Of a stretch of DNA of 64,000 nucleotides, positions 2,344-53,865 are shown in pieces. Source of the DNA: Candidatus Xianfuyuplasma coldseepsis (GTDB lineage: Bacteria; Bacillota_I; Bacilli_A; Izemoplasmatales; Izemoplasmataceae). The stretch's first letter is position 1; every line of letters starts with the position of its first letter. The DNA lies in NCBI RefSeq assembly GCF_014023125.1, contig NZ_CP048914.1, positions 1,702,698 to 1,766,697 on the forward strand. Direction: 5' to 3'. The position numbers and the translations under genes are program-made. The notes under the pieces were generated by a model. The model made no database searches, was not told the DNA's origin, and was given only the letters and a program-made list of their open reading frames with translations.

Positions 2344-2937
2344 ATGAGCGATATTATATTTGATTTATTGGAAATTTTACTAGAGGTTGTTGTTGAGGTT
2401 GCTTCGAATAAGAAACAGGCAACCTCTCATCATGGAGCGATTAAAAATAGTGCACAACGGAATGCAGCATTTGGGACCCAAATAGTTCCAAAGACAGATG
2501 CAGTAATGATTGATAATAATCAATACCAAGAATCCAAAACGAACTATAATACCGATTTCTTACCGTCAAATAAGCCCGTACGAGATGTATATACAGATAT
2601 CCTTCACAAGGCGGAATTGCAGATTATGACGTTGATTTACATGTTGCAACAAGACGATGGAAAAATTACGTTTGATGAAGCTCGGATATTAAAAAAGCAC
2701 ATTCGTACACATAAAATAAAGTTGTTAAAAAGCGATATTAAACGATTTCAGAACTATGCGAACAAAGACATCACCATTGAGACAATCATTACCTTTATTC
2801 ATGACCAATCGATCCCAGTGGAATCGATTAAAGACCTGTTGGTGTTGTTAAAAGACGTGAATAATGTAACCAAACGACATAGTCGTATTATCGAGTTCGT
2901 TCAAGGGCAAATATACATGGAAGTGGATTTTCTGTAA
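2344..2937 (+). CDS. Hypothetical soluble protein, 197 residues
   Basis: The start was chosen at the ATG preceded by AAGGAG eight bases upstream. The reading frame is open 22 codons further up, but without a ribosome binding site. The N-terminal 25 residues (MSDIIFDLLEILLEVVVEVA) form one amphipathic or membrane-associated helix. A polar linker to about residue 85 follows, then a helical domain (about 90-195) rich in Lys and Ile with the motif DGKITFDEARILKKHI, which recalls an EF-hand-like acidic loop but lacks the full pattern. It is flanked by its own promoter and terminator. Function unknown. Confidence 0.65.
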   Translation: MSDIIFDLLEILLEVVVEVASNKKQATSHHGAIKNSAQRNAAFGTQIVPKTDAVMIDNNQYQESKTNYNTDFLPSNKPVRDVYTDILHKAELQIMTLIYMLQQDDGKITFDEARILKKHIRTHKIKLLKSDIKRFQNYANKDITIETIITFIHDQSIPVESIKDLLVLLKDVNNVTKRHSRIIEFVQGQIYMEVDFL

Positions 2938-2943
2938 TAAACC

Positions 2944-2967
2944 AAAAAGACGTTTATCGTCTTTTTT
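2944..2967 (+). terminator. Intrinsic terminator
   Basis: AAAAAGACG / CGTCTTTTT stem with a five-base loop. Confidence 0.8.
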
Positions 2968-2988
2968 ATTGTTTGACGTACAAATGCA

Positions 2989-3016
2989 TTGAAAACGATT
3001 CATTTTGTGATACAAT
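2989..3016 (+). promoter_or_regulatory. Promoter of the YcxB-like gene
   Basis: TTGAAA, 16-bp spacer, TACAAT. Confidence 0.6.
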
Positions 3017-3045
3017 ACACTTGATTATAGAAAGGAGTCATATGT

Positions 3046-3552
3046 ATGGAATATCATTTTAACCAACACGTGACACGTGAAGATTACATCGCTTTTTTAA
3101 TGAATCACTTACGAATGAACATCTTTAAACCAACCAACTTAATCTTCTTTACGATTGGGATTGGGTATCTAGCAGTCGCTCCATTCATCACTGGAACACA
3201 AGATTTCACCTTTACATTTATTGGACTTGGATTGGTACTTGTTATGATTTTATCGATTTTGTTTGCGCGCTATAATGCGGGAAAACGATATGATAAAAAC
3301 CCGGGAAATTTCGATATGTCGTACACCGTTGATGACAATGGATTTTCGTATAATGTATCGGGCCAAAAAATTGAAACACCATGGATGAATTTTTACAGTG
3401 CGTCTGAAACAGAGGACTATTTATATGTATTTGTCTCAAAAGATAGCGGTAGTGTGATTGTCAAACGCGACGTCCCAAATGATGCGATTGAGTTCATTAA
3501 AACAAAACTACAAGAACACGTGAATGCCAAGAAAATCAACTTTCTCAAATAA
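3046..3552 (+). CDS. YcxB-like membrane protein
   Basis: 168 residues. A short N-terminal cytoplasmic part (YHFNQHVTREDYIAFLMNH) is followed by two membrane helices (about 28-48 and 52-72). A C-terminal domain then reads FDMSYTVDDNGFSYNV, an aromatic PWMNFY turn, and DYLYVFVSKDSGSVIVKRDV. This order (two helices, then a strand-rich domain with W-x-x-F/I and a final VxKR) is that of the YcxB family, whose role is unknown. ATG is eight bases after AAGGAG. The gene is monocistronic with promoter and terminator. Confidence 0.6.
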   Translation: MEYHFNQHVTREDYIAFLMNHLRMNIFKPTNLIFFTIGIGYLAVAPFITGTQDFTFTFIGLGLVLVMILSILFARYNAGKRYDKNPGNFDMSYTVDDNGFSYNVSGQKIETPWMNFYSASETEDYLYVFVSKDSGSVIVKRDVPNDAIEFIKTKLQEHVNAKKINFLK

Positions 3553-3580
3553 AAACTACTCCGACGAGTAGTTTTTTTTG
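3552..3580 (+). terminator. Intrinsic terminator
   Basis: AAACTACTC CGAC GAGTAGTTT followed by a long T-run. Confidence 0.85.
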
Positions 3581-3586
3581 TAATCC

Positions 3587-3615
3587 TTTTCAATTATTTC
3601 TCCATATGATACAAT
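3587..3615 (+). promoter_or_regulatory. Promoter of the receiver-domain gene
   Basis: TTTTCA, 17-bp spacer, then TGATACAAT (extended -10). Confidence 0.55.
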
Positions 3616-3649
3616 ATGTATGAAGAAATAAACTTGTGGAGGACAGCCT

Positions 3650-4024
3650 ATGGCAACGATTTTATGTATGGATAACTCCGATACAATTCGCAAAGTAGTA
3701 CAGGACTGTGTCGAAGATTTACACCATCAATTTGTCGGTGTTGAGAATGGAAAACAAGGCATGGAGATTGCCCCAACTTTATCGGATTTAAAGTTGATTG
3801 TTTTGGACTGGAACATGCCGGTTCAAAGCGGCCGGGAAACCTTACTTCAAATCCGTGAGACTAAGGCAACCAAAGATGTTATGGTACTTACGCTGATTAA
3901 GATTGAAAACAAAGATCAAGTAATGGATGTCATTGAACTTGGATCCACAAATTACATGTTAAAACCGTTTCGGGTAAACGACCTCCAAGATAAAATTGAA
4001 GAAATGATGACAAATGCAGTGTAA
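3650..4024 (+). CDS. Stand-alone response-regulator receiver protein (CheY-like)
   Basis: 124 residues, a single receiver domain with no output domain. The phospho-acceptor is Asp53 in VLDWNMP, the acidic pocket is Asp8/Asp11, the switch Thr is Thr81, and Lys105-Pro106-Phe107 completes the set, so all key residues are present. No histidine kinase or chemotaxis gene is in the window, so the partner must be encoded elsewhere. The neighbour downstream (Nudix) is separated by a terminator hairpin, so this is a one-gene transcript. CheY-like signalling to a motor, or a phosphorelay like Spo0F, are both possible. The domain call is certain. Confidence 0.9.
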   Translation: MATILCMDNSDTIRKVVQDCVEDLHHQFVGVENGKQGMEIAPTLSDLKLIVLDWNMPVQSGRETLLQIRETKATKDVMVLTLIKIENKDQVMDVIELGSTNYMLKPFRVNDLQDKIEEMMTNAV

Positions 4025-4037
4025 TACTGCATTTTTG
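4012..4037 (+). terminator. Terminator enclosing the stop codon
   Basis: AAATGCAGT / ACTGCATTT stem with the TAA stop in the loop, then TTG. Confidence 0.7.
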
Positions 4038-4050
4038 ATAGGGTGATGAT

Positions 4051-4527
4051 ATGAAAATTGAAGTATTTGATGGAAATTTAGAATCACAGGATATTGTCAA
4101 TAACACCATGCGTATCGGCTGTCGAGCTGTGGTATTACACGACAGTAAAATACTAACTGTGTATGATGAGAAGTGGGATATCACTTCCTTACCAGGTGGT
4201 GGATTAGAACCTGGGGAAACGATCACAGAATGTGTCATCCGTGAAGTAAAGGAAGAAACTGGAGTAATCGTAACGAATCCAGTGGAAATGGTCCGAGTTA
4301 TTGAACACTTTGATGGCAATAGCTACACGTCGATATATTTTAAATGTGATTATGTTAACTCGACAAATATAACTTCCCTTACTGCACTAGAGAAAGAAGT
4401 AAACTTGCTAACAAGATGGGTGACAATAGAAAATTTGATGACTGAACTTAGTACCAATCGAACACTTCATGAACATGGAGGAAATATCCACGATCGTGAA
4501 TTTTTAGGATTGATTAACAGTATATAA
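4051..4527 (+). CDS. Nudix hydrolase
   Basis: 158 residues. The Nudix box is complete: a glycine-rich LPGGGLEPGE, then REVKEETGV with the metal-binding REVKEE, spanning about residues 50-75. These enzymes cleave nucleoside diphosphates linked to another group; the substrate is not shown by the sequence. The flanks look ordinary: a strand-rich N-terminus (MRIGCRAVVLHDSKILTVY) and a C-terminal helix. It ends four bases before the Shine-Dalgarno of the next gene, so it is probably cotranscribed with the DUF2779 nuclease. Confidence 0.9.
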   Translation: MKIEVFDGNLESQDIVNNTMRIGCRAVVLHDSKILTVYDEKWDITSLPGGGLEPGETITECVIREVKEETGVIVTNPVEMVRVIEHFDGNSYTSIYFKCDYVNSTNITSLTALEKEVNLLTRWVTIENLMTELSTNRTLHEHGGNIHDREFLGLINSI

Positions 4528-9382: not shown

Positions 9383-10189
9383 ATGACGAAAATGGTCGTA
9401 GCGGATATGGATGGAACACTTCTTCGAAGTGACTTATCTGTATCGGATAAAAATAAACAAGCAATTGAATATTTACGGAATAAAGGTATCCATTTCACCG
9501 TTGCAACAGGTCGACCCGATCAACTTGTGAAAGAGTATATCGAACTACTGAGTTTAAATGAACCACTGATTATGTACAATGGGAGCGTTGTTGGACATCC
9601 GTTTCAAGAAAAACGACTGTATGAGCAGTCTCTTGCGAAAGAAGACGTTCGTCGAATTGTTGAGTACTGTGAACAAGAGAACATTATCTGGATGTGTTAT
9701 ACAAAAGATAAAATCATTAGCAAGCCTAATTTTCGTGTAGATTTCTTTTTAGAACGAAATCAGAAACTACCAGAAAATGGGCGAAGTATTTTTGAAGACA
9801 TTCGTGATATCGATACCATTGTTAACGATTATCATGTACAAAAAATATTGCTAATTGAGCACAATCAAGATGTTTACAAAAAAACAAAAACGCTATTGGA
9901 ACAATATGATCAATTTACCATTGCAACATCCCAAAGCGGATTCCTTGATATTAATCCAATTGGAGTTACCAAAGGAGAAGCGTTAAAAAAACTTGCGGAG
10001 CATTACCATATAGCTTTGGAAGATGTTGTTGTTTTCGGAGACCAAGAAAACGATATTAGCATGCTACAAATCGCTGGAACAAGCATTGCGATGGGGAATG
10101 CAACCGCACATGCGAAAGATGTAGCTGATTATGTCACATCAACCAATAATGAAGATGGGTTCGCTCAATGGGTGTTTGCCAATTTATAG
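9383..10189 (+). CDS. HAD-family (Cof-type) sugar-phosphate phosphatase
   Basis: 268 residues. Motif I DMDGTLL with nucleophile Asp8 is at the N-terminus, motif II is ATGR near residue 41, a C2 cap lies in the middle, and motif IV is FGDQENDISML near residue 220. These are all the catalytic parts of the Cof/YidA group. Such enzymes dephosphorylate sugar phosphates or flavin nucleotides. Its place between ulaA and the second ula promoter suggests relief of sugar-phosphate stress during ascorbate use, which is an inference. GAGGTGAT precedes the ATG. Confidence 0.85.
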   Translation: MTKMVVADMDGTLLRSDLSVSDKNKQAIEYLRNKGIHFTVATGRPDQLVKEYIELLSLNEPLIMYNGSVVGHPFQEKRLYEQSLAKEDVRRIVEYCEQENIIWMCYTKDKIISKPNFRVDFFLERNQKLPENGRSIFEDIRDIDTIVNDYHVQKILLIEHNQDVYKKTKTLLEQYDQFTIATSQSGFLDINPIGVTKGEALKKLAEHYHIALEDVVVFGDQENDISMLQIAGTSIAMGNATAHAKDVADYVTSTNNEDGFAQWVFANL

Positions 10190-10203
10190 TGAACAAATGT
10201 TCA
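10190..10203 (+). promoter_or_regulatory. Operator palindrome upstream of ulaC
   Basis: TGAACAAATGTTCA, the exact reverse complement of the site at 7759. It begins on the last base of the HAD stop codon. Confidence 0.75.
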
Positions 10204-10218
10204 ATAATAAATTAATAA

Positions 10219-10247
10219 TTAACAAATGTGCATGATTATAATACAAT
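10219..10247 (+). promoter_or_regulatory. ulaC-ulaG-...-ptsH promoter with a second operator
   Basis: TTAACA, 17-bp spacer, TACAAT. A near-copy of the operator, TTAACAAATGTGCA (12 of 14), covers 10219-10232 and starts at the -35 box, 29 bp after the first site. Confidence 0.7.
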
Positions 10248-10270
10248 ACAATTAAGAAGGAGTGACGACT

Positions 10271-10711
10271 ATGATTGATGGATTTGTCTTAACCAAAGAA
10301 TTGATTACCTTTGCGAATGGATTTGATTCCTGGGAAGAAGCGATTACTGTTTCTAGCAAAGGATTACTCGAACAAGGATACATTGAACCATCATATGTGG
10401 ATGCGATGATTGAATCGGTTCATACGTATGGACCATATATCGTCATTGCACCAAACATTGCAATGCCACATGCCCGTCCAGAAGCGGGGAGTAACAAGGT
10501 TGGATTCAGCGTGATGGTGACCCAAAAACCAGTTCAATTTTCTAATCAAAAAGAACATGAGGCACGCTTATTTGTGACCTTAAGTTGTGTCAGTTCGGAT
10601 ACGCATTTAAAAATGATTCAGGCACTCGTAACGATTTTAGGGGATGATGATAAGGTTGAAACAATATTGAATGCGACCACTGCAGAAGACTTGCTTGCAG
10701 TGTTTAAATAG
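10271..10711 (+). CDS. ulaC: PTS L-ascorbate subunit IIA
   Basis: 146 residues, a complete EIIA of the mannitol/fructose fold. The phospho-histidine is His67 in NIAMPHARPE. It accepts phosphate from HPr and passes it to the IIB protein. The ATG at 10271 is eight bases after AAGGAG; an upstream in-frame GTG at 10262 overlaps that site and is unlikely. First gene of the long operon, followed by ulaG with a nine-base gap. Confidence 0.9.
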   Translation: MIDGFVLTKELITFANGFDSWEEAITVSSKGLLEQGYIEPSYVDAMIESVHTYGPYIVIAPNIAMPHARPEAGSNKVGFSVMVTQKPVQFSNQKEHEARLFVTLSCVSSDTHLKMIQALVTILGDDDKVETILNATTAEDLLAVFK

Positions 10712-17474: not shown

Positions 17475-19799
17475 ATGTATCAAGCAAATGTACTTACTGA
17501 AGGAATCTTACCGAGCATCGCGATTCGTGGAATTGCGCCTTTTCCACATACCGATCTTCGTATCGAAGTAGGACGTAATGTCAGTAAAAAGGCATTACTA
17601 GAAGCCGAAAAGAACTATGATTCACATTTATTGTTATTAATTCAAGAAAATCCCATGCATGACACACCAACCAAAAGCAACGTCCTTAATCATGGTGTTA
17701 TCGCACGGATTGGTATAAAAATCAAACTGCCAAATGGCAATTACAAAGTAAAATTTGATCCGATTGTTCGGGCTGAATTATTACAATTCCAACAAACAGA
17801 GCCATTTTTTGTGACTCGTTTTAAAACGATGCCGACCGTCCAAGATGATATTGATCAAGAACTCGCTTTGGTGCGGATGCTTGCCAAACAAGTGTTAGAC
17901 AATGGAAAATCCTTATTAAAAAATCCAAAAGCCAGTTTGGAAGCGATCCAAAATGGTGTTTCAAGCGATAAATTATGTGATGTTGTTGCCAACAGTTTAA
18001 AAATTGCCGAAACGCAAAAATTTAAATATGTGGAAACCGCTTCACTCAACCAACGGTTAACCTACTTACTAGAAGATATCGAAAAAGAGAAATACATGAC
18101 GCAAATTGAGAATCAAATCAACATGACCGTAAAGAAAAACATTGATGAGAATCAAAAAGAGTACTATTTACGCGAAAAAATGAAAGCGATTCAAGAAGAA
18201 CTTGGTGACAAAGCCAAGCGCGAAAGCGACATTGAAGAGCTTAAAGACAAAATTATTGCAAAAAAAATGCCTCCACATATCGAAGAGAAGGCTCTATATG
18301 AACTATCACGATATCAAACCCTACCGGCATCGAGTGGAGAAAGTGGAGTTATCCGCACATATCTTGATTTCATCATCGAATTACCGTGGCATGAAGTCAG
18401 TATTGATGAGACCGATATCTCCAAGGCAGAAGATGCACTCGATTCCACTCATTTTGGACTGGAAAAAGTCAAAGAACGGATTATCGAGTACCTCGCCGTT
18501 AAGATATTAACCGGAAAAAACCCACAAACAATATTATGTTTAGTTGGTCCTCCTGGTGTAGGTAAAACCTCATTGGCACAATCCATCGCAAAAGCACTAG
18601 GTCGTAACTTCGTCAAGCAATCCCTGGGTGGAGTTAAAGATGAAAGTGAAATACGTGGACACCGCCGTACTTATTTAGGCGCATTACCTGGCCGCATTAT
18701 GCAAGGAATGAAAAAAGCGAAAGTTGTCAACCCCGTATTCTTACTTGACGAGATTGATAAACTTGGATTTGACTATAAAGGCGATCCAAGTGCAGCACTA
18801 CTTGAAGTACTTGATCCGGAACAAAATGCCAAATTTAGTGATCATTACTTAGAAGAACAGTATGACCTTTCTCAAGTATTGTTCATTGCTACTGCAAACT
18901 ACTTGGGTAATATCCCCGCACCACTACGTGATCGGATGGAAATCATCGAACTCAGTAGTTATACGGAAATTGAGAAATTGAACATTGCCAAAGAACACCT
19001 AATTGATAAACAACTCGAAACACATGGGTTAACCACCGATAAATTCCAAATTAATGATGATGCAGTTATGGAAATGATTCGTTCCTATACCCGTGAAGCT
19101 GGAGTTCGTCAACTCGACCGTTTATTTGGTTCATTAATCCGTAAATCAATCAAAATTATTCTTGGAGACAAGAAAGACAAGGTTATGATAACTGCTGAAA
19201 ACCTTAATGATTTTCTTGGTAAACCACGGTTCTCTAACACGAAAGCGGAAAAGGATGATCAAGTCGGTGTTGTTACCGGTCTTGCCTATACCCAATTTGG
19301 TGGAGACACCCTTCCTGTAGAAGTTACCTATTACAAAGGTAAAGGAAACCTTGTTCTTACAGGAAAATTAGGCGATGTCATGAAAGAAAGTGCTCAAGCT
19401 GCATTATCCTACGTTAAATCGAATGCGGATAAACTTGGTATTGATATTTCCATCTTCCATGAGAACGATATTCATATCCATGTACCAGAAGGAGCGGTTC
19501 CGAAAGATGGCCCAAGTGCCGGTGTTACCATCACTACCGCAATCGTTAGTGCTTTAACAAACAAAAAAGTCGATCATTTCTTAGGAATGACAGGTGAAAT
19601 CACCTTACGTGGTCGTGTCCTTCCAATTGGTGGATTAAAAGAAAAATCAATTGCGGCACATCGCAGTGGATTGAAAACCATCATGATTCCATTTGATAAC
19701 AAAAAAGATTTGGAAGACATTCCGCAAGATGTCAAGGATCACTTGGAAATCATCCCTGTGGAAACCATTGATGAAATCATTACAAGAGCATTAAAATAA
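17475..19799 (+). CDS. lon: ATP-dependent protease Lon
   Basis: 774 residues, the standard length of LonA. The N-terminal substrate domain starts LPSIAIRGIAPFPHTDLR. A coiled-coil region lies near 190-270 (YYLREKMKAIQEELG). The AAA+ domain has Walker A GPPGVGKTS and Walker B VFLLDEIDKLG. The protease domain has Ser681 in KDGPSAGV and the Lys of the dyad in GGLKEKSIAAHRSG. It degrades damaged and regulatory proteins. Single gene with its own promoter and terminator. Confidence 0.98.
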   Translation: MYQANVLTEGILPSIAIRGIAPFPHTDLRIEVGRNVSKKALLEAEKNYDSHLLLLIQENPMHDTPTKSNVLNHGVIARIGIKIKLPNGNYKVKFDPIVRAELLQFQQTEPFFVTRFKTMPTVQDDIDQELALVRMLAKQVLDNGKSLLKNPKASLEAIQNGVSSDKLCDVVANSLKIAETQKFKYVETASLNQRLTYLLEDIEKEKYMTQIENQINMTVKKNIDENQKEYYLREKMKAIQEELGDKAKRESDIEELKDKIIAKKMPPHIEEKALYELSRYQTLPASSGESGVIRTYLDFIIELPWHEVSIDETDISKAEDALDSTHFGLEKVKERIIEYLAVKILTGKNPQTILCLVGPPGVGKTSLAQSIAKALGRNFVKQSLGGVKDESEIRGHRRTYLGALPGRIMQGMKKAKVVNPVFLLDEIDKLGFDYKGDPSAALLEVLDPEQNAKFSDHYLEEQYDLSQVLFIATANYLGNIPAPLRDRMEIIELSSYTEIEKLNIAKEHLIDKQLETHGLTTDKFQINDDAVMEMIRSYTREAGVRQLDRLFGSLIRKSIKIILGDKKDKVMITAENLNDFLGKPRFSNTKAEKDDQVGVVTGLAYTQFGGDTLPVEVTYYKGKGNLVLTGKLGDVMKESAQAALSYVKSNADKLGIDISIFHENDIHIHVPEGAVPKDGPSAGVTITTAIVSALTNKKVDHFLGMTGEITLRGRVLPIGGLKEKSIAAHRSGLKTIMIPFDNKKDLEDIPQDVKDHLEIIPVETIDEIITRALK

Positions 19800-19828
19800 A
19801 CCAGTACAGCTGTACTGGTTTTTTTTTA
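19800..19828 (+). terminator. lon terminator
   Basis: ACCAGTAC AG CTGTACTGGT stem and a nine-base T-run. Confidence 0.9.
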
Positions 19829-19837
19829 TGATATAAT
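19829..19837 (+). promoter_or_regulatory. Extended -10 promoter
   Basis: TGATATAAT directly after the lon terminator. Confidence 0.5.
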
Positions 19838-19859: not shown

Positions 19860-20066
19860 ATGAAAAACAAACTACTGTTGTTGGTTTTGATATTATTGTT
19901 AGCAACCAGTGTTTTTACGGAACCTTTACCTGATGTTATTGACACATTTGCAGGTGCAACGAATCCTAGTTTTGACCCAAAGATTGATGACATTGCTGGT
20001 GTATCAGAAGATGACCACGACGATGATGAACATGAAGATGACGATGATGAAGAGGATGATGACTAA
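19860..20066 (+). CDS. Tiny exported acidic protein with a flavinylation-like motif
   Basis: 68 residues. Residues 1-20 form a hydrophobic signal sequence or anchor (KNKLLLLVLILLLATSVF). Residues 28-37 read DTFAGATNPS, which fits the D-x-x-(S/A)-G-A-T-x-x-S pattern where ApbE attaches FMN to Thr in RnfG/NqrC-type domains (Thr34 here). Residues 49-68 are almost only Asp and Glu. No folded FMN-binding domain is present. The stop overlaps the start of the haem-type membrane protein next door (TAATG), so the two are made together. A metal- or cation-binding role of the acidic tail is possible. The gene is real by promoter, signal and coupling; the function is inferred. Confidence 0.6.
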   Translation: MKNKLLLLVLILLLATSVFTEPLPDVIDTFAGATNPSFDPKIDDIAGVSEDDHDDDEHEDDDDEEDDD

Positions 20067-20668
20067 TGACAGTGACAATTCTCCTTGTTATCATAATTGT
20101 ATTATGCTCTTATCTTTGGTACAAACAAATTCATAAATATCATTTCATTCTATATCCTACTAACCTTTTGATTGCTATCATATTATCCAATGAATCACCC
20201 AACTATATCACCTTTGGCTTCGTATCTTTAGTGTTCTTTACCGTTGTGATGTTTGCCGGAGTATTAGACAAGGGAGTATTGCGCAAACGACTGCTTATGA
20301 TACGGGCTGAACTCGCAGTATTAGGAACGATTTATATCATACCTCATTTTCTTGCTTATACGGAGCTTGTTCTCGAGGATATCGGATTGTTTCGTGCAAC
20401 AGTTGAATATTATATAGGTCTTATCATCGCAATTATTCTCATTCCACTTACAATAACATCATTTCCCTATATTAGGAAACAGATGAATTTCAAGCAGTGG
20501 AAGAAACTCCATCTATTAGCTTATGGTGTCTATGGATTAATTGCAATTCACTTAATCATTCAAAACACCATACGGATATGGTTGTATGTGGGACTATTTT
20601 TAATCTATCTCGTATTTCGATTGTATACGATGCACACGTCACCATCCGTTAAACGATTACCACAATAA
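20066..20668 (+). CDS. Ferric-reductase-like transmembrane protein
   Basis: 200 residues, about six membrane helices. Histidines occur in IPHFLAY (about residue 93) and in KKLHLLAYGVYGLIAIHLI (about 147 and 160), spaced as in the ferric-reductase-like/MsrQ haem domain where they bind b-type haem. The K-x-W-K-K-L-H start of that helix is typical. No FAD or NAD domain is fused, so electrons must come from elsewhere. It is coupled to the acidic protein upstream. The likely role is transmembrane electron transfer. Confidence 0.65.
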   Translation: MTVTILLVIIIVLCSYLWYKQIHKYHFILYPTNLLIAIILSNESPNYITFGFVSLVFFTVVMFAGVLDKGVLRKRLLMIRAELAVLGTIYIIPHFLAYTELVLEDIGLFRATVEYYIGLIIAIILIPLTITSFPYIRKQMNFKQWKKLHLLAYGVYGLIAIHLIIQNTIRIWLYVGLFLIYLVFRLYTMHTSPSVKRLPQ

Positions 20669-20672
20669 AAAT

Positions 20673-20714
20673 AAACACAAGAATCTTATTCGATCATAGG
20701 GTTCTTGTGTTTTT
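20673..20714 (+). terminator. Intrinsic terminator with a long loop
   Basis: AAACACAAGAA / TTCTTGTGTTT with an 18-base loop and TTTT. Confidence 0.75.
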
Positions 20715-20754: not shown

Positions 20755-20783
20755 TTGACATATGACCAGTGGTCATATATAAT
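20755..20783 (+). promoter_or_regulatory. Consensus promoter with the TetR operator in the spacer
   Basis: TTGACA, 17-bp spacer, TATAAT. A 19-bp perfect palindrome ATATGACCA-G-TGGTCATAT (20760-20778) fills the spacer, so a bound repressor would block RNA polymerase. Confidence 0.85.
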
Positions 20784-20815
20784 AGAATTAGCCTTAACAA
20801 AGGGAAGTGGTTCAA

Positions 20816-21436
20816 ATGCCAAAAAATACGTACTATAATCTACCAGACGATAAAAAAGAACGAATTTTCAATGCTGGTATCCTTGAATTTAGTTACCATG
20901 ATCGATATGAAGCATCGGTAAATCGGATTGTTCGGATTGCTAGTATCTCCAAAGGAAGTTTCTATCAATACTTTGAGAATAAAGATGAGTTCTTTTGGTT
21001 TATTGTCACAGAAATCATATATGGATCTGTTGAAAAGTATGAAACGTTACTCGAACAACATGACGGAGATTTCTTACAAACCGAAGAAGATGTCTTTTTT
21101 GCCCTTCTTGATTTATTCGATGATTCAAAATACCGAAACCTGCTATCCAATGTTTATCGAACGTCGTATATGGAGTTGCAATCGCGAATTCGTAACAAAT
21201 CAACGACGATTTATTTTGATATGTACGATGTATTGATGAAATTTGGATTTAAAGGGTATGATATCAAATCCAAAGATGATTTCCTTGTCGCCTATGAGAT
21301 GATTCGTAATGTTGCCAATCAATTAATTATGACGATGATTGCTGAAAATCTCTCAAAAACACGAACAAAACTTCTCTATGAGCGTCATATGTACTATATA
21401 ACAAACGGATTAAAAAAACGCGGTTGGTTTCAATAA
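20816..21436 (+). CDS. TetR-family transcriptional regulator
   Basis: 206 residues. The HTH is near residues 25-50, ending SKGSFYQYFENKDEFFWFI, which is the TetR signature (SKGSFYxYFxNKxEL). The C-terminal ligand domain is not close to a known subgroup. The ATG follows AGGGA by ten bases. The very good palindrome in its promoter spacer argues for autorepression. No target gene is divergent or cotranscribed: pepF follows after a gap with its own -10 box, so other targets lie elsewhere. Confidence 0.9.
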   Translation: MPKNTYYNLPDDKKERIFNAGILEFSYHDRYEASVNRIVRIASISKGSFYQYFENKDEFFWFIVTEIIYGSVEKYETLLEQHDGDFLQTEEDVFFALLDLFDDSKYRNLLSNVYRTSYMELQSRIRNKSTTIYFDMYDVLMKFGFKGYDIKSKDDFLVAYEMIRNVANQLIMTMIAENLSKTRTKLLYERHMYYITNGLKKRGWFQ

Positions 21437-53005: not shown

Positions 53006-53022
53006 TAAAGAAGGAAATGACA

Positions 53023-53412
53023 ATGAAAAAAATAGTGATTATTATCGGATCCATCATCGGATTCTTTGCCATCGGATTTGGGATTATGTTCATCACCCTT
53101 AGCCAAAACATGAAAACAATAAATGCCATTACGATACCAGAGGTAGATATAACCTCGTGGGAAGATACCGTTGTCCAAGGAGAATATTATTACAAGGATC
53201 AAATCGGGGCAACCGTTGAAGTAACTATTACAGATGGAACCATTACCGATATCCGATTTATTGAACACCTGTATGGCCTTGGTGGAAAAGCTGAAGTTAT
53301 TATCGACGATATCATTGCACAGCAGACGTTACAAGTAGATGATGTTGCTGGCGCAACAACATCAAGTCATGTCATCAAACTAGCAATATTAAATGCACTG
53401 GAGGAAGAATAA
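53023..53412 (+). CDS. FMN-binding domain protein, membrane anchored
   Basis: 129 residues from the second ATG, chosen for its seven-base spacing from AAGGA. A single N-terminal helix (3-26) anchors it outside. GEYYYKDQIGATVEVTI and DGTITDIRFIEH start the FMN-bind fold, and DDVAGATTSS (106-115) is the flavinylation motif with Thr112 as the likely FMN attachment site. It is a minimal version of the RnfG/NqrC domain. The ApbE enzyme that would add FMN is not in the window. Confidence 0.85.
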   Translation: MKKIVIIIGSIIGFFAIGFGIMFITLSQNMKTINAITIPEVDITSWEDTVVQGEYYYKDQIGATVEVTITDGTITDIRFIEHLYGLGGKAEVIIDDIIAQQTLQVDDVAGATTSSHVIKLAILNALEEE

Positions 53413-53865
53413 ATGAAAACATTAATGTTATATCACTCAAAGCAAGGGCATACCAAAACATGTATCGACTATCTCAACAATCGGACTGATGACACATGCG
53501 TAGTACCTGTACAAGATTTTACAGCGTCATTGGACGAATATGATTCCGTAATTATTGGAACCCCCGTGTACATGGGGAACATCCATAAAATGATTAAAAC
53601 CTTTATCCAACAACATGAGCAAACATTGTTGCAGAAGTCATTAACAATTGTTGTATGTGCCATGAACGATAGCGAATATGAGGCAATGATTCAACGAAAT
53701 TTCACAGAATCAATACGTAATCACGCGAGAATAGTTCATGCAGGTGGAGGCTACAATTTTAAACGACTTAATTTCCTCGAACGATTCATCGTTAAAAAGA
53801 TTGCGAAAGTCGATTCGTCCATTTCATCCATTAAATATGATCAACTAGACTCGATTTCAATGTAA
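53413..53865 (+). CDS. Flavodoxin-domain protein
   Basis: 150 residues. The FMN phosphate loop YHSKQGHTKT is at about 7-16. IIGTPVYMGNIHKMIKTF is the second flavin loop, and the ending GYNFKRLNFLERFIVKKIAK matches the HemG-like flavodoxin group. It is cytoplasmic, binds FMN without covalent attachment and carries electrons. It starts on the base after the stop of the FMN-binding gene. No haem-synthesis genes are near, so a protoporphyrinogen oxidase role is not supported. Confidence 0.85.
   Translation: MKTLMLYHSKQGHTKTCIDYLNNRTDDTCVVPVQDFTASLDEYDSVIIGTPVYMGNIHKMIKTFIQQHEQTLLQKSLTIVVCAMNDSEYEAMIQRNFTESIRNHARIVHAGGGYNFKRLNFLERFIVKKIAKVDSSISSIKYDQLDSISM

Follow-up and report, generated by a model that had tools for sequence, protein, structure and literature searches.

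Xianfuyuplasma coldseepsis zrk13 is an Izemoplasma without a cell wall that comes from a cold seep (PMC8397711). Its genome consists of a single contig of 1,958,905 bases, of which one stretch of 64,000 nucleotides (henceforth the window) was analyzed here. On the forward strand of the window two genes lie between two terminators: one encodes a peptide of 68 residues (19860-20066) and the next a protein of 200 residues with a PF01794 domain (20066-20668). The intrinsic terminator of the upstream lon gene, with a 10-pair stem and a T run (19798-19821), sets the pair apart from lon, while a second intrinsic terminator with a 17-pair stem (20673-20712) closes the unit. Direct reading of the sequence suggests a putative extended -10 element (TGATATAAT) for the unit at 19829-19837, which is missing from the list produced by the promoter scan because it has no good -35 element upstream. 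The small open reading frame is present as originally predicted, with its start codon at 19860 backed by the alignment of homologues, and so is the overlap of its stop with the start of the reductase gene, the two codons having one base in common (TAATG). The two genes form a translationally coupled pair: this overlap is seen in 12 of the 14 homologous pairs, and the reductase gene has its Shine-Dalgarno sequence (GAGGATGATGACTAATG) within the last codons of the acidic tail of the peptide. On the 3' side of the pair lies a TetR-type regulator gene (20807-21436), with a perfect TTGACA-17-TATAAT promoter (20755-20783) inside which a palindrome (TATGACCAGTGGTCATA) is the likely operator. Many reductases of the family that have no peptide (e.g. 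L004, L079, L078, L080, L082 and L125) also have a TetR-like gene directly upstream.

The AlphaFold model of the peptide shows one hydrophobic helix, with low confidence beyond it. This helix (residues 2-19; 19863-19916; pLDDT about 80) is predicted to be an export signal or a membrane anchor. The helix follows a Lys-containing start. In all homologues the N-terminus is hydrophobic; only Ala, Gly or Ser occurs at position 17, and small or aliphatic residues predominate at position 15, as at a signal peptidase site. Hence, of the signal sequence claimed by the original prediction the hydrophobic N-terminal helix stands, but it may be an uncleaved anchor, the data being indecisive between the two. 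Given that the cell has no wall, a cleaved peptide of 51 residues would be lost unless it were bound to the cytochrome. A search with the FMN_bind profile (PF04205) recovered no match in the peptide at a cut-off of E 10, with the HMMER filters dropping most weak matches, in agreement with the absence of an FMN-binding fold noted earlier; NCBIfam searches returned only sub-threshold matches.

Beyond the helix is a DTFAGAT motif (residues 28-34; 19941-19961) with Thr34 as the proposed acceptor of the flavin. The motif recognized by ApbE is D-x-x-[S/T]-G-A-[S/T], whose seven residues suffice for modification, best at the termini of a protein (reviewed in PMC12052999), so that the missing fold of the peptide is no obstacle to modification. 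DTFAGAT fits this motif except for an Ala in place of Ser/Thr at position 4. This variant is shared with FMN_bind and Rnf/Nqr-type proteins encoded in the same genome, which contain motifs such as DDVAGAT, DGVAGAT, DQLAGAT, DGEAGAT, DSITGAT and DERTGAS, and Ala at position 4 is therefore normal in this organism. One of these, an FMN_bind protein at 53017-53412 (profile E 9e-10), carries the DDVAGATTSS segment and thereby bears out the claim that the pattern of the peptide recurs in a true FMN_bind protein; as judged by eye, this FMN_bind protein is preceded by a MarR-like regulator and directly followed by a flavodoxin-like protein (53017-53865). When the strict motif is defined as D-x-x-[AGST]-G-A-[ST], it occurs once in the 19,009 residues of the window open reading frames of at least 120 amino acids, namely in this same FMN_bind protein, and it arises in 0.05% of 200,000 shuffles of the peptide. 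The original prediction recognized one motif in the peptide; alignment of homologues reveals a second, weakened version, DDIAGVS (residues 43-49; 19986-20006), with Ser49 as the proposed acceptor. In mutagenesis studies, replacing the Ala of the motif by Val gave about 50% flavinylation, and Ser was modified less than Thr (reviewed in PMC12052999), which makes partial use of Ser49 possible. The peptide ends in an acidic tail (20007-20063), in which 17 of 19 residues are Asp or Glu and two are His; no comparable tail was found in the other window open reading frames of at least 120 amino acids.

Use of the reductase to search the family, order and class recovered 14 non-redundant reductases whose genes are directly preceded by one for a homologous peptide. 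Relatives were obtained with the reductase alignment as the query, a single reductase having given none, and none were found in viral contigs. In a tree of 67 reductases the peptide is directly upstream of all 14 members of one clade (SH-aLRT 91) and of 0 of the 53 others, a distribution with one change. The peptides range from 55 to 91 residues in length, and 13 of the 14 display at least one copy of the strict motif, such that both the motif and the pairing hold across the clade; the exception (L050) has DAIAGST and DAMASAT. Twelve of the peptides align gap-free over 50 residues: here E21, P22, D25, D28, G32 and D43 never vary, T or S occupies positions 34 and 49 throughout, and G47 is retained in 11. 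Agreement in motif 1 is 0.70, 0.82 and 0.32 at the first, second and third codon positions, respectively, indicating that selection acts on the protein. The usual state of the family is the presence of two D-x-x-x-G-A-[S/T] motifs, whose acceptors are 15 residues apart in the twelve gap-free peptides. The second motif is intact (D..[AGST]GA[ST]) in 9 of the 14 homologues, including a canonical DAISGAT/DAISGAS pair in L055/L099, and weakened in the window copy and its nearest relative (DEVGGVS). The acidic run claimed earlier is likewise real and is found in 12 of the 14 homologues, in some of which it includes one or two His, but it is missing from L056 and L124, both of which retain two perfect motifs. 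Consequently the tail is not the core of the family, and metal binding by it is no defining property. The genome also encodes a paralogue of the peptide (L047:8077-8349, minus strand), 91 residues long and with motif-like segments and a Tyr/Trp-rich acidic tail (DDDYDDDDYEEQEDEWEWEWEDDD), which likewise lies directly upstream of a paralogous reductase.

The peptide is limited to a lineage: most of its occurrences are in Izemoplasmatales, the others being a single branch from a different family of the class (G376) together with a related MAG (that of L056). A profile of the peptide yielded seven strong matches in 395 genomes of the class, and three in 392 genomes of the phylum, all within its own family. 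Weaker matches in the class search (E 1e-4 to 1e-2) were short stretches, mostly inside longer open reading frames, and were set aside as noise.

The 200-residue protein matches PF01794 over the cut-off (E 5e-10), confirming a ferric-reductase-like membrane cytochrome of the MsrQ/YedZ-like type; profile searches detect no FMN_bind domain in it. Alignments place its haem residues at R80, H94, H149 and H162, with R80 and H94 being 14 residues apart and H149 and H162 13 apart, their counterparts in NOX2 being His101/115 and His209/222. Replacement of the first haem His by Arg with retention of the surface-proximal haem is the signature of YedZ and STEAP1 (PMC3591440), and the reductase shares with this type both the Arg and the three His at canonical spacing. 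The expected haem histidines of the original prediction thus need to be revised, in that the protein is of the YedZ/STEAP type and does not have the four-histidine set for two haems. The AlphaFold model (pLDDT 93) is nearest to STEAP2, STEAP4 and SpNOX, with STEAP, SpNOX and NOX5 structures heading the list at Z 10-12, though the Foldseek E-value is weak (0.01), and a sequence search of solved structures returned only STEAP4 (E 0.33). A role in an MsrPQ system was ruled out, as no match to MsrP (PF00174) was found in the genome with a search that was positive in control genomes.

The relatives of this reductase have partners of other kinds. A C-terminal FMN_bind-type fusion with a GAT-like motif is present in L007 from the same genus and in L057/L084, L083 and L086 from Izemoplasmatales, as well as in the clostridial reductases L059-L062, L064 and L067; a profile match to the FMN_bind domain is obtained in members such as L007 and L057, and an apbE-like gene is next door to some of the fused forms. 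Of all the evidence on what the peptide does, this fused form carries the most weight, because it is the same cytochrome that is elsewhere joined to an ApbE-type domain. Peptides and fused reductases occur in separate genomes of the order (11 versus 4 of 90), a replacement-like pattern with too few instances for significance. The partner of three related reductases (L030, L132 and L134) is a cytochrome-b5-like lipoprotein, and for other relatives none was recognized. In L030 a small exported cytochrome-b5-like protein (1112-1471; PF00173) lies ahead of the reductase, and the corresponding genes in L132 and L134 are at reverse-complement 1058-1450 and plus 1106-1453, respectively. A divergent branch of reductases (L008, L009, L010 and L135) lies beside a cydA-like gene, with a conserved protein of about 60 residues in between.

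The original prediction called for an apbE gene in the genome, and one was recovered (E 1e-49). This sole copy (G000:C1:339076-339903) is outside the gene cluster of the pair, in which the peptide starts at G000:C1:1722557. ApbE is encoded in 9 of the 11 peptide-bearing genomes of the order, the two in which it was not found being incomplete assemblies, and also in G376 and in the genome of L056. However, 78 of the 90 genomes of the order possess it; its co-occurrence was hence dropped as proof of flavinylation, and its presence constitutes a necessary condition without being strong evidence. Two further loci in L044 are of note in regard to flavinylation: a 629-residue RnfG-like subunit with four ApbE motifs (2403-4289), located in one of the genome's several Rnf/Nqr-type clusters, and, just upstream of apbE, a lipoprotein with a DEFAGSSVST segment and no Pfam match (9953-10603), possibly a divergent flavinylated protein.

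Taken together, these observations make it probable that the peptide is an unfolded carrier flavinylated by ApbE, which replaces an FMN_bind domain and is reduced by the outer haem of a cytochrome of the YedZ/STEAP type. In such a scheme, for which we infer flavinylation, haem loading, the direction of electron flow and the acceptor, the two genes would constitute a minimal module for outward electron transfer. The reductase, which probably has six helices, would take electrons from the inside, either from quinol or from a cytosolic flavin reductase, and these might cross via the surface-proximal haem, which homology predicts to be held by H94 and H162. The exported peptide would be positioned beside the cytochrome, its N-terminal helix lying either within or at the membrane, and ApbE, encoded elsewhere and needed anyway for the Rnf/Nqr-type complexes, would attach FMN to Thr34; in most relatives FMN would also be placed at the second site 15 residues on, with weak or partial modification at Ser49 in the present version. 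At the outer face, the tethered FMN could then accept electrons from the haem and pass them to an acceptor outside, with the fold-less peptide doing the job that falls to a C-terminal FMN_bind domain in relatives of this cytochrome. The acidic tail would be an accessory, which may attract cations such as ferric iron. The broader proposal, that there is a natural family of carriers whose members have only a membrane helix, a pair of ApbE sites spaced by 15 residues and, optionally, an acidic tail, acting as an unfolded two-flavin 'wire' in place of an FMN_bind domain at the surface of wall-less bacteria, appears to us evenly balanced. Several observations speak against a flavin carrier: apbE is outside the gene cluster and too common in the order for co-occurrence to say much; L050 lacks the strict motif, and two peptide-bearing genomes, albeit incomplete, showed no ApbE; most copies of the motif have Ala at position 4 and not the preferred Ser/Thr; and FMN on an unfolded peptide would be exposed to solvent and could engage in unspecific reactions.

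An alternative that we consider unlikely is that the peptide serves as a small accessory subunit to stabilize or assemble the cytochrome, like the CydX-type small membrane proteins, with the GAT-like motifs being structural and flavin-free. The conserved single hydrophobic helix, the tight coupling and the strict pairing with one reductase clade would all fit such a subunit, and the small residues at position 17, and often at 14, could pack against the cytochrome. However, it leaves unexplained the two ApbE motifs, which keep their distance and their D, G and T/S residues amid drift elsewhere in the peptide, the two canonical DAISGA[T/S] motifs of L099, and the true FMN_bind domain in other reductases of the family. 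Still more doubtful is the possibility that the peptide is flavinylated but that its FMN is a tethered cofactor, either docking back into the cytochrome or serving a single dedicated partner, and not general acceptors outside. No cytochrome of this type is known to us to have a flavin site on its outer face; nevertheless, covalent FMN docks into a flavin site in Flavodoxin_4 and FMN_red proteins (PMC11334425), and MsrQ-type proteins leave free access to their distal haem (PMC11031084).

It is also conceivable, if very improbable, that the acidic tail is the working part, trapping ferric iron or other cations at the surface for direct reduction by the haem, with the motifs being incidental. The prevalence of the tail among the homologues, its occasional His residues and its singularity among the longer open reading frames of the window are in line with this, but L056 and L124 lack the tail and yet carry two perfect motifs each. 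That the open reading frame is merely a regulatory leader whose acidic codons slow or destabilize the ribosome and so control translation of the reductase is scarcely credible: acidic runs can indeed destabilize ribosomes, the Shine-Dalgarno sequence is within these codons and the stop overlaps the start, but the motifs and the EP..D segment are conserved as amino acids, in contrast to the variable third codon positions, and L056 and L124 have no acidic run.

Under the favored reading of an ApbE-flavinylated carrier, the peptide may be among the smallest natural electron carriers. To our knowledge, no ApbE substrate made up of only a helix and motifs has been described, and searches of open-access papers found no flavinylated peptide of this kind. 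In the natural ApbE substrates from the literature that were compared, the flavin is in, or next to, a folded domain; were the proposal true, covalent attachment alone would be enough for a physiological redox protein. This would suggest that surveys relying on FMN_bind domains or apbE neighbors miss substrates, and the pair would offer a very small and easily made model of haem-to-flavin transfer across a single membrane. It would also point to a route of outward electron transfer in the wall-less Izemoplasma bacteria.

The peptide-reductase pair is a variant of the MsrQ-like flavinylated systems, which combine PF01794, FMN_bind and apbE (Meheust et al. 2021, PMC8238504; Huang et al. 2024, PMC11334425), and no description of this variant was found in the open-access literature. 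Both comprise a PF01794 cytochrome with an extracytosolic partner bearing ApbE motifs, and the FMN_bind-fused form exists among relatives of the present reductase; the pair, however, has no FMN_bind domain, clustered apbE or NAD-binding domain, and its partner is an unfolded peptide of 55-91 residues. With the MsrPQ (YedYZ) methionine sulfoxide reductase the present enzyme has in common the YedZ-type pattern of R80, H94, H149 and H162, but the genome has no homologue of MsrP (PF00174). The multi-flavinylated FMN_bind proteins SaFMN3 and CbFMN4 resemble the peptide family in possessing several ApbE motifs per protein, though theirs are each inside a folded FMN_bind domain (PMC10339131). In FMN_red proteins the natural flavinylation sites are on an unstructured C-terminal extension, which, like the peptide, presents one or two ApbE motifs in a fold-less segment, but there the flavin adjoins the folded flavin site of the same protein (PMC11334425). 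Finally, in the case of the Flavin-tag, a tag of seven residues, ApbE modifies a short motif outside the FMN_bind fold, as proposed for the peptide, but this tag is man-made and has no redox partner (reviewed in PMC12052999).
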